Source: Candidatus Iainarchaeum sp.
Lineage (GTDB): Archaea > Iainarchaeota > Iainarchaeia > JAGGVJ01
Length of the DNA stretch: 31,812 nt
Direction of reading: 5' to 3'
NCBI GenBank assembly: GCA_021158055.1
Contig: JAGGVJ010000028.1
Location: 1 to 31,812 of the forward strand
A program made the position numbers and the translations under genes. Shown one piece after another: positions 29,715 through 31,812 of this stretch (positions are counted from its first letter, which is position 1; each line of letters opens with the position of its first letter). The notes beneath the pieces are model-generated. The model was given only the letters and a program-made list of their open reading frames with translations. It searched no databases and was not told the DNA's origin.

Positions 29715-29827
29715 GGAAAAGCAGTGAATTTTTCAGGCGCGAAGAACAGGATTGATTTCTAAAAAGAGTTTTGTAGAAGTCATTTATAAATGGTTATGTA
29801 TGGGCTGTATCTGGGTGGTTTTGCCTC

Positions 29828-29903
29828 GGGATAAAAGGAAAATTGCTCAGCTCGCAATTTTCCCAAATTTTCTCCGCTACTCTCCGAAAACTTCTTTTAT
29901 CCC
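29828..29903. ncRNA. Candidate structured RNA or miniature element: closed three-way junction
   Basis: A perfect outer stem GGGATAAAAG (29828-29837) pairs with CTTTTATCCC (29894-29903). Inside it GGAAAATTGC (29837-29846) pairs perfectly with GCAATTTTCC (29854-29863) around the loop TCAGCTC. A weaker TTTTC/GAAAA pair at 29868-29890 may close a second arm. Two nested perfect 10-bp stems in 76 bp are well above chance. It may be a small RNA, or a MITE-like (miniature transposon) element with terminal inverted repeats; strand unknown. Confidence 0.45.
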
Positions 29904-29946
29904 TGATGTTATACACAATTGAATTTTCATTAGTCTAAATCTCATT

Positions 29947-30020
29947 CTTCTTTTAGAAAAAGAAGCAAAAGAGGAGGAGTCCAGATGCTACGCACATATA
30001 GTCTTTTGTTTCACAAAAGA
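29947..30020. other. Two further perfect 8-bp hairpins in the non-coding stretch
   Basis: CTTCTTTT/AAAAGAAG with a 3-base loop lies at 29947-29965, and TCTTTTGT/ACAAAAGA with a 3-base loop lies at 30002-30020. The 398-bp gap between the DedA-like stop and the next start (29715-30112) holds no gene that I can support. It is made up of these hairpins, the nested element before them and the promoter after them. Confidence 0.5.
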
Positions 30021-30025
30021 AATAC

Positions 30026-30040
30026 ATTCATATTATGAAT
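30026..30040. promoter_or_regulatory. Palindromic operator candidate upstream of the DUF134 operon
   Basis: ATTCATA-T-TATGAAT is a perfect 7-bp inverted repeat around one base. It ends 20 bp before the TATA box at 30060. This position is suitable for an activator or repressor; the DUF134 helix-turn-helix protein encoded downstream is a natural candidate for autoregulation. Confidence 0.5.
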
Positions 30041-30052
30041 ATTTACCCAAAA

Positions 30053-30067
30053 CGAAACATTTAAATA
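30053..30067 (+). promoter_or_regulatory. BRE/TATA promoter of the DUF5320-DUF134 operon
   Basis: CGAAAC (BRE-like) is followed by TTTAAATA (30060-30067). A start site is expected near 30089, leaving a short leader with the strong SD AAGGAGG (30097-30103), nine bases before ATG 30113. This is one of the few genes here with an ideal SD. Confidence 0.7.
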
Positions 30068-30112
30068 GTTTAATGCATATATATTCGTAATTAAACAAGG
30101 AGGAAAAACAAA

Positions 30113-30274
30113 ATGCCAAACAAAGATGGAACAGGACCTGAAGGAAAAGGATCAAAAACTGGGAGAGGATTGGGAAACTGTGCTGGAGAAACAAAGAATA
30201 CAGACAACAGACCCTTAAATCGTGGTATCGGTCGTAGATCTGAGCGAGGTCAGGGAAGAGGAAGAAATGCCTAG
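30113..30274 (+). CDS. Small DUF5320-like protein
   Basis: The 53-residue Gly/Arg/Asn-rich protein begins MPNKDGTGPEGKGSKTGRGLG. The N-terminal pattern M-P-x-x-D-G-T-G-P-x-G-x-G-x-x-T-G-R-G is typical of DUF5320-type proteins, which are commonly found next to NifX/DUF134 and Mrp-type ATPase genes in anaerobic archaea and bacteria. The one Cys is at residue 23. Start ATG 30113 has the SD AAGGAGG at nine bases. The stop overlaps the DUF134 start (ATGCCTAG), so translation is coupled. The function of the family is unknown; it is linked by context to iron-sulfur or metal chemistry. Confidence 0.8.
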   Translation: MPNKDGTGPEGKGSKTGRGLGNCAGETKNTDNRPLNRGIGRRSERGQGRGRNA

Positions 30275-30599
30275 ACCTTGTAAGAGAAGAAGAATTAGAG
30301 GAAATCCTAATTCTTCTTATTTTAAACCAGTAGGAATACGAATGATTGATTTAAAAGAATCTGTTTTAAATTTATCTGAATTCGAATCAATAAGATTAGT
30401 TGATTTAAATGATATTACTCAAAAAGAAGCAGGAAAACAAATGCAAATTTCACAGTCAACATTATCAAGAATCCTCAAATCTGGAAGAAAAAAAATAGCA
30501 GATGCAATAATAAACAGTAAGGCAATAAAAATTGAAAGGTATGAAACAAATACCAAAAATTTAGAAATTATTGAAAATAAATTAGATCACTCAAATTAA
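30267..30599 (+). CDS. DUF134 (UPF0251) helix-turn-helix protein
   Basis: The 110-residue protein starts MPRPCKRRRIRGNPNSSYFKP, the standard DUF134 opening. VNLDE-like acidic text follows (FESIRLVDLNDITQKEAG), then a helix-turn-helix KQMQISQSTLSRILKSGRKKIAD. It is a likely DNA-binding regulator of the operon. ATG 30267 was chosen because it gives the canonical MPRP start and overlaps the previous stop; codons upstream are in another gene. The normal family partner, a NifX-like domain either fused or adjacent, is only present as a broken piece just after the stop, in the same frame. Confidence 0.9.
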   Translation: MPRPCKRRRIRGNPNSSYFKPVGIRMIDLKESVLNLSEFESIRLVDLNDITQKEAGKQMQISQSTLSRILKSGRKKIADAIINSKAIKIERYETNTKNLEIIENKLDHSN

Positions 30600-30789
30600 G
30601 GTTTAACCCCTATTGATCAAATCATGAAATTTAATCCCAATATTGTTTTTACATTAGGCATAGGACAAAGAGCAATAAAGTTATTTAATGGAAAAGGAGT
30701 AAGACTTGAAACGGGGATATAAAACTGTAAAAGATGTTATTGAGAATATGAGCAATCTTAAAAAATTAAACTCGGGATGTGAGTATTAA
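30600..30789 (+). pseudogene. Remnant of a NifX/NafY-like (dinitrogenase FeMo-cofactor family) protein
   Basis: Directly after the DUF134 TAA, in the same frame, the sequence reads GLTPIDQIMKFNPNIVFTLG then IGQRAIKLFNGKGVRLETG. This is the C-terminal half of the PF02579 fold (pattern: PNIV..GIG.RA...L...GV). The frame then breaks at about 30717-30720. After a one-base shift it continues YKTVKDVIENMSNLKKLNSG CEY and stops at 30787-30789, just before the permease ATG. The N-terminal half of the fold is missing. So this copy has both an internal deletion and a frameshift. If real, cofactor-related function of the operon is lost or supplied elsewhere. Confidence 0.7.
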
Positions 30790-31215
30790 ATGAAAAATAA
30801 TACTTTCAGACAAGCAGTAATAAAAGCGGGGAAAGGATTATGGGGAGCATTTCCAATGATTTTAGGAACAATTTTACTTATAAGCCTAATCTCTACTTTA
30901 ATTCCTAAATTATTTTATACAAATGTATTTAGCAAAAATATTATTTTAAATTCTTTTATTGGTAGTTTAGTTGGGAGTATTTCTGCAGGAAATCCAATAA
31001 CAAGTTATATTTTTGGTGGAGAACTTTTAACTCAAGGAATTAGTCTTTTAGCTGTCACTGCTTTTTTAGTTGCATGGGTTACTGTTGGATTAATACAACT
31101 ACCCGCAGAATCAGCAGTATTAGGGAAAAAATTTGCTTTATTAAGAAATGCTAGTTCGTTCATCTTAGCAATGATTGTAGCTATAATCACAGTATCAATT
31201 TTAGGAGTATTATAA
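30790..31215 (+). CDS. Half-size permease (PF03773/DUF318-like), N-terminal half
   Basis: The 141-residue integral membrane protein has about four segments. The stretch NSFIGSLVGSISAGNPITSYIFGGELLTQG and the later QLPAESAVLGKKFALLRNAS fit the permease family that includes ArsP and related exporters, but only one half of the usual fold is encoded. The usual Cys/Ser-Cys motif of that family is absent; SAGNP is in its place. The ATG follows the pseudogene stop with no gap. It is paired with the second half two bases downstream. The substrate is unknown; an organic or metal(loid) compound is possible by family. Confidence 0.65.
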   Translation: MKNNTFRQAVIKAGKGLWGAFPMILGTILLISLISTLIPKLFYTNVFSKNIILNSFIGSLVGSISAGNPITSYIFGGELLTQGISLLAVTAFLVAWVTVGLIQLPAESAVLGKKFALLRNASSFILAMIVAIITVSILGVL

Positions 31216-31217
31216 AT

Positions 31218-31727
31218 ATGGGCATAAAAAATAAATTCAAACAAATTTCAGGAGCAGGGTATTTTTTAATAGGCATATTAATTGTTTATCTCATTTTATT
31301 TTTTATTAGACAGGACTTATTCTTTTCGAGTATAAACTTTTTTTATAATATTATTTTAAAAATAATTCCTGTTTTCATTTTAGTTTTCATTTTAATGACA
31401 ATTACTAATTACTTTATAACTCCAAAGTTTGTAATAAAACATCTTAAAGAGAAAGGAATAAAAAAATGGGTTTTTGTTATTATTGGAGGGGTTTTATCTA
31501 CAGGGCCAATTTACATGTGGTATCCTTTTTTAGCAGATTTAAAAAATAAAGGATTGAACTATGGGCTTATTGCTTGCTTTCTATATAATCGGGCAATTAA
31601 AATTTCTTTGTTGCCTTTGGCCATAATCTATTTTACTTGGCAGTATATCTTAGTTTTATCTTTTGTTATGATTTTTATTTCTATCATTCAAGGCATAATA
31701 ATAAATAAATTAATGGATAATAAATAA
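31218..31727 (+). CDS. Half-size permease, C-terminal half
   Basis: The 169-residue membrane protein has about four to five segments. IIGGVLSTGPIYMWYPFLADLKNKG (residues about 88-112) is the second-repeat equivalent of the family's conserved glycine-proline region, and FLYNRAIKISLLPLAI follows. It starts two bases after the first half's stop. The two halves presumably assemble into one transporter. The last residues (INKLMDNK) are encoded by a 19-bp tandem array, and the stop lies in its second unit, so the true original C-terminus may be altered. Confidence 0.65.
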   Translation: MGIKNKFKQISGAGYFLIGILIVYLILFFIRQDLFFSSINFFYNIILKIIPVFILVFILMTITNYFITPKFVIKHLKEKGIKKWVFVIIGGVLSTGPIYMWYPFLADLKNKGLNYGLIACFLYNRAIKISLLPLAIIYFTWQYILVLSFVMIFISIIQGIIINKLMDNK

Positions 31728-31812
31728 ATTAATGGATAATAAATAAATTAATGGATAATAAATAAATTAATGGATAATAAATAAATTAATGGATAATAAA
31801 TAAATTAATGGA
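31698..31812. repeat. 19-bp tandem array, about six copies, running off the window
   Basis: The unit GGATAATAAATAAATTAAT repeats perfectly with period 19 (GG at 31715, 31734, 31753, 31772, 31791, 31810), and the array begins inside the permease gene. There is no variation between copies. It could be a young slippage array, or an artefact at a contig end. Confidence 0.95.

Follow-up and report, generated by a model that had tools for sequence, protein, structure and literature searches.

A probable left-truncated attC site in Candidatus Iainarchaeum sp. and related sites in DPANN archaea and Patescibacteria

The hairpin locus and the adjoining AT-rich DNA

The window, which is the whole stretch of DNA analysed here (31,812 nucleotides), is one contig of a Candidatus Iainarchaeum sp. 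genome (G000) of 1.15 Mb in 45 contigs. A hairpin sits 113 bases past the stop codon of a gene for a VTT-domain (DedA-like) protein, and to the right of the hairpin the GC content drops from about 0.48 to 0.24-0.27, in agreement with the border between ordinary chromosome and AT-rich DNA described in the first-pass annotation. The features of the locus are as follows.

29819..29825, forward strand: expected position of an R'' box (NNNYAAC), reading TTTTGCC; R'' lost or cut off
29828..29903, reverse strand: attC-type core, an L''...L' stem with two side arms at a three-way junction, assigned from the fold, model matches and family covariation
29828-29837 paired with 29894-29903: outer stem GGGATAAAAG/CTTTTATCCC, the L''/L' arms
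29837-29846 paired with 29854-29863: inner stem GGAAAATTGC/GCAATTTTCC
29865-29872 paired with 29886-29893: third arm AAATTTTC/GAAAACTT, on the bottom strand, with one T-G wobble
29908..29914, forward strand: R' box GTTATAC, followed by ACAAT; predicted exchange point G29908^T29909 by analogy with integrons
29909..31812, forward strand: AT-rich DNA opening like a cassette; presumed extent, as the closing attC would lie beyond the contig
30113..30274, forward strand: cargo gene for a DUF5320 protein (Pfam PF17253)
30267..30599, forward strand: cargo gene for a DUF134 putative HTH regulator (Pfam PF02001)
30790..31215, forward strand: cargo gene for an ArsP_1-like permease half (under the Pfam cut-off)
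31218..31727, forward strand: cargo gene for a second membrane protein, probably the other permease half (open reading frame with no Pfam match)

The two nested 10-bp stems noticed in the first-pass annotation fold as claimed. As RNA, 29828-29903 has a minimum free energy of -20.1 kcal/mol, compared with -8.98 +/- 2.44 for shuffled sequences (z = -4.56; 0 of 200 as stable), and G29837 is common to the outer and inner stems on the top strand. The third arm, proposed in that annotation as a possibility, is real, and is fully paired only on the bottom strand, where the A29867/C29891 of the top strand becomes a T-G wobble. The folding energies of the bottom and top strands are -27.1 versus -21.5 (RNA) and -17.2 versus -14.9 (DNA), and the functional fold of the attC-type core is that of the bottom strand. 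A bottom-strand covariance model (R1) matches over 29817-29914 and an improved model (R2) over 29821-29914; the functional unit reaches the GTTATAC at 29908-29914.

In this box the GTT of the attC consensus GTTRRRY is present, with T at one of the three R positions. An R'' box (RYYYAAC) able to pair with R' is missing, the corresponding bases reading TTTTGCC, and the copy was therefore filed as an attC-derived, truncated site. Its homology with the family described below starts at GGGATAAAAG, and the copy also lacks the ACGCTGCGCT segment usually found ahead of R''. With both absent, the copy is truncated and probably unable to pair R boxes, and it would now be inactive or weakened. The R boxes of the subfamily to which it belongs, GTTATAC/GTATAAC, are one position off GTTRRRY/RYYYAAC. 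The ACAAT that follows R' fits the cassette-start consensus of the family, GTTA..Y.MAAT (NMAAT after R'), in which positions 9-12 are A or C in 95%, A in 83%, A in 90% and T in 92%.

As the intact R' and ACAAT match the cassette start of the family, the likeliest reading of the AT-rich genes (DUF5320, DUF134 and the ArsP-like permeases) is that they form an imported cassette of several genes, which would have entered via an attC/integrase route and would end beyond the contig, in a predicted attC site with R'' = GTATAAC. A permease with 61% identity to the ArsP_1-like one adjoins an attC in G081 (locus L061), a further genome of the class, where the orientation of the permease relative to its attC is opposite to that in the window; the G081 site has the canonical attC boxes GCCTAAC and GTTAGGT. 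A perfect 19-base tandem repeat (31698-31812, six copies) begins within the last part of the second permease gene and runs into the contig end, and is probably where the assembly stopped.

Copies, spread and structure of the attC-type family

BLAST found a second copy of the hairpin in the same genome (contig C21, 2063-2152; 86% identity) and a third in a relative, G045 (79%). The three aligned copies all have both stems, the third arm and a right-hand GTTATAC/T box, and a left box, GTATAAC or ATATAAC, is present in the C21 and G045 copies and absent in the window. In this alignment, which was not fitted to a model, five pairs are changed on both sides. There are two attC-type sites in the genome, one of them in the window, and no array was seen here; contig C21 carries a set consisting of a tyrosine recombinase, an attI-like site and one one-gene cassette. 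Within the class, family members are patchily distributed, being found in 5 of 87 genomes by R1 (E <= 0.001) and in 8 of 87 by R2 (E <= 0.01). On contig C78 of G045 (L017, 2784-3732), a DNA alkylation repair gene is followed by an intact attC, apparently as a single cassette within an otherwise ordinary chromosomal region.

A single pattern scan over 84,980 species genomes returned 64 loci, nearly all in DPANN archaea (Pace-, Nano-, Woese-, Aenigmat-, Nanohal- and Diapherotrites archaea) or in many Patescibacteria. A few lie in Methanocellales, Methanosarcinaceae, ANME-1 and others, and a handful are evident chance matches in unrelated bacteria; viral contig matches to the pattern were rejected as chance, lying inside a coding gene. 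R1 gave 132 matches, 102 of which were kept as sites; some weak matches (e.g. L053, L054) are low-complexity chance matches. Homologues and further copies, for which the first-pass annotation had asked, were recovered in the same genome, in the class and beyond.

The compensatory changes called for in the same annotation were also found. Across 75 sites, 94% of cells are paired and 26 of 34 pairs are changed on both sides, a level reached in 0 of 500 shuffles and not approached by slid controls; this alignment was fitted to the model and so leans to the structure, and the effect size and the unfitted comparison of three copies agree. A G-T pair occupies the same place in the third arm of 73 of the 75 sites, where the top-strand equivalent would be C-A, indicating that the bottom strand is under selection. 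Since the scan pattern fixes part of the arm sequence, letter conservation was re-tested on sites outside the pattern. There, the two unpaired junction Gs are kept in 24/25 and 22/25 sites, and the bottom-only G-T pair persists. At fixed positions, NNNYAAC is found in 89/102 sites and GTTRNNY in 73/102. R'' thus ends in AAC and R' starts with GTT, as in attC sites, and as judged by covariation and energies each site is an imperfect palindrome that favours the bottom strand and retains unpaired bases. Integron integrases recognise a bottom-strand fold with unpaired bases (PMC8946536).

A conserved segment, made up of ACGCTGCGCT and about 25 further bases, lies ahead of R'' in many loci (L113, L069 and L101 among them), and its flanks look complementary (CC/GG or GGG/CCC). 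RNAalifold gave no structure for this segment on the top strand; it is possibly an accessory part of the attC-type site. Elsewhere, locus L057 (G023:C18) has two direct repeats of about 100 bases (1501-1602 and 2106-2208) that weakly match the attC model, and between them a hicB/hicA-like gene pair, named by eye, in what resembles a cassette-like unit with another site type. At about 1500-1600 of L011 (G039:C18), an apparent intron-bearing tRNA gene, at which ARAGORN called no tRNA, holds GAAAATTGC..GCAATTTTC hairpins resembling the inner stem, which are probably chance or related hairpins.

Cassette arrays and the associated tyrosine recombinases

All sites share one orientation in each of the 23 loci with two or more sites (23/23). 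Neighbouring sites bound 29 cassette units of 468-2007 bp, each typically with one main gene, and in 23 of the 29 the longest open reading frame is on the top strand of the attC. These loci are thus same-orientation cassette arrays with one attC per cassette, G000 itself having one cassette seen. An integron cassette moves as a circle, and R'' is therefore expected to complement the start of its own cassette, not the following junction. Of 32 adjacent pairs, 20 have an R'' that perfectly matches the start of its own cassette, compared with 5.3 after shuffling (no shuffle of 5000 reached this level); the own cassette start is the better fit in 22 pairs and the adjacent downstream R' in 3. Such a match is the signature expected of insertion as a circular cassette.

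Flanking sequence was taken to about 4 kb as a rule and to 5.2 kb at most; in it, 16 of the 64 loci have a tyrosine recombinase gene, and C21 makes a seventeenth. The gene is upstream and divergent in all 17, and the proteins have about 270-300 residues where complete. In the array genomes, attC sites lie within 1.5 kb of 21/30 recombinases, as against 0/29 of the recombinase loci of the class. An attI-like site is located shortly ahead of the gene, and in four members of the clade of the window organism it is 59 bases before the integrase start. Its right half is conserved (CTTATATRCG.ACTTTTATA or close) and its left half varies with the cassette, and attI and cassette start together make a dif-like 11-6-11 inverted repeat. 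ATTTCGTATAACAACTTATATACGAACT is dif-like and was considered as a dif site, but it fits attI better, since only its right half is constant between relatives and the left half changes in step with the cassette start. As in an integron, the divergent tyrosine recombinase gene has an attI-like site beside it.

The C21 gene encodes the only tyrosine recombinase found in the G000 genome; a class-type XerA was not found there, and the cassette-associated enzyme may also serve chromosome dimer resolution, unless the housekeeping gene lies in the missing 5%. Its identity to class XerA proteins is 39% (median), whereas these are about 57% identical to each other, and a tree places it, with 100/100 support, among integrases from Nanohaloarchaeota and Aenigmatarchaeota that bear arrays; a relative from Nanohaloarchaeota is 71% identical to it. 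Identity and tree together rule out that it is the class's own XerA. Array integrases overall do not form one clade in this tree. The C21 integrase would be the enzyme acting on the attC sites.

The C21 protein scored 245.9 against NCBIfam XerA_Arch (cut-off 220), and 237.5, in two pieces, against the integron-integrase model TIGR02249 (cut-off 265), on which IntI1 scores 508.6 in one piece. Its alignment with V. cholerae IntI4 (2a3v) skips from residue 185 to 246, a stretch where the query has only 16 residues. The protein thus lacks about 40 residues, the I2 region, between the catalytic boxes. In 27 array-genome recombinases, 56-60 residues separate the KG..R box from the HxLRH box, compared with 100 in IntI1. 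With IntI1 as query, every recombinase of 24 array genomes matches piecewise: the first piece extends no further than residue 210 and the second begins at 219 or beyond, in most cases near 250. None in these incomplete MAGs, which may conceivably hold an IntI with the add-on elsewhere, matches across the add-on. With no I2 add-on and a score below the TIGR02249 cut-off, the C21 protein is not a canonical IntI. According to published work (PMC7790495), integrases gained the ability to recombine single-stranded attC with the acquisition of the I2 helix, which occurs in no other protein, and intermediates of this step are lacking.

Interpretation, alternatives and comparison with known systems

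Taken together, these data make it very probable that the hairpin derives from an attC, the recombination site carried by the cassettes of an integron-type system, and that it has lost its left end. Where relatives are intact, their bottom strand forms an R''/R' stem and an L''/L' stem, and a variable two-armed structure caps these. By analogy with integrons, a Xer-like integrase would cut the single-stranded site at R' (G^TTA), and the cut cassette would recombine with the attI beside the integrase's own gene or with another attC. The R' in the window would then mark the start of the imported AT-rich cassette. The absent add-on counts against this reading, because published work treats it as necessary (PMC7790495). 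Also against it stand the loss of R'' and of the ACGCTGCGCT segment in the window copy, the finding of only two sites in the genome and no array here, the one-position departure of the subfamily's R boxes, and an AT-rich region whose far end lies beyond the contig.

It is conceivable, if unlikely, that these are canonical attC sites (CALINs) served in trans by an ordinary IntI with the add-on, and that their Xer-like neighbours are incidental. Foreign IntI can use attC sites, and reported archaeal integrons are mostly attC clusters without an integrase, the few archaeal IntIs found carrying the add-on (PMC9668308). However, the divergent arrangement of the recombinase in every locus with one nearby, the attI-like sites in front of add-on-less recombinases, the association of attC with array-genome recombinases but not with class loci, and the failure of any recombinase in the 24 array genomes to match IntI1 through the add-on stretch all argue against a trans-acting IntI.

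Readings that dispense with cassette recombination fare worse. The first-pass annotation had suggested a small RNA, and strong covariation and a stable fold would suit a regulatory or small RNA. Yet there is no Rfam match, the copies are arranged head-to-tail among unrelated genes, an integrase flanking the series on one side, the cargo on either side differs widely, and the R''/R' register would be meaningless for an RNA; strand-specific pairing and array context point instead to single-stranded DNA recombination, leaving an RNA highly improbable. The other suggestion made there, a mobile element, holds in so far as the sites are linked to DNA mobility. A MITE or transposon end pair with terminal inverted repeats would account for the inverted ends, the copies in several genomes and the AT-rich neighbour, but is even less probable than an RNA: copies run head-to-tail in a single orientation per locus with one gene per unit, a Xer-like tyrosine recombinase, not a DDE transposase, is the enzyme linked to them, and the target duplications sought at the ends are not visible by eye at the three first copies. 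Least credible of all is a transcription terminator or chance palindrome, for which the position just downstream of the VTT-domain gene speaks, but not the homologous structure in two domains with compensatory changes. A tRNA reading of the hairpin was tried and rejected.

The attC interpretation leads to a broader proposal, for and against which we see about equal chances. DPANN archaea and Patescibacteria would share an integron lineage with integrases that never had I2 or lost it, and that still recombine folded single-stranded attC, perhaps via the branched cap and the junction Gs. Recombinases lacking I2 do stand at the front of attC arrays that have attI-like sites and show clear traces of past cassette exchange. 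Should these enzymes prove to carry out the reaction, natural proteins would allow a test of the evolutionary step, and the lineage would be either the missing intermediate from Xer to IntI or a second solution, and also a route for gene cassettes between domains. The occurrence of one site family over DPANN archaea and Patescibacteria suggests cassette traffic between two great groups of ultra-small cells. Searches that require the add-on would miss I2-less enzymes, which could explain why archaeal integrons look integrase-less. Integrons and archaeal attC are known; I2-less integrases with a branched attC family in two domains appear to be unreported, as no description of integrons in Patescibacteria, or of attC arrays led by add-on-less integrases, was found in the literature searched, subscription journals and preprints being outside it.

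Among known systems, the archaeal attC sites and cassettes of Ghaly et al. 2022 (PMC9668308) are similar in their one-orientation arrays of short genes, bottom-strand-folding sites, AAC/GTT boxes and attI beside the integrase; that work, in which archaeal attC sites were delivered to E. coli on a single-stranded suicide vector, is likewise MAG-based and includes Nanoarchaeota and Aenigmatarchaeota, and some family sites may already be among its 539 attC sites. It differs in that its IntIs carry the add-on, which the array integrases here lack, and the family described here has a sequence-conserved, branched two-arm cap common to archaea and Patescibacteria. The closest functional analogue is bacterial IntI (TIGR02249, NF011946; IntI1; V. 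cholerae IntI4, PDB 2a3v). The G000 integrase is 33% identical to IntI1 and alike in its divergent gene, attI and attC, but falls below the model cut-off and is without the I2 region. Archaeal XerA/dif (NF040815; PDB 5hxy, 4a8e) is matched by an integrase above the XerA_Arch cut-off and by the dif-like 11-6-11 repeat; in contrast, the integrase falls outside the XerA group of its own class, and adjoins attC and cassettes, which class XerA loci do not. IMEX elements (integrative mobile elements exploiting Xer) also use a Xer-type recombinase, and the CTX phage uses a folded single strand (PMC7790495), whereas here the recombinase is encoded with its sites and the mobile units are gene-cassette arrays.
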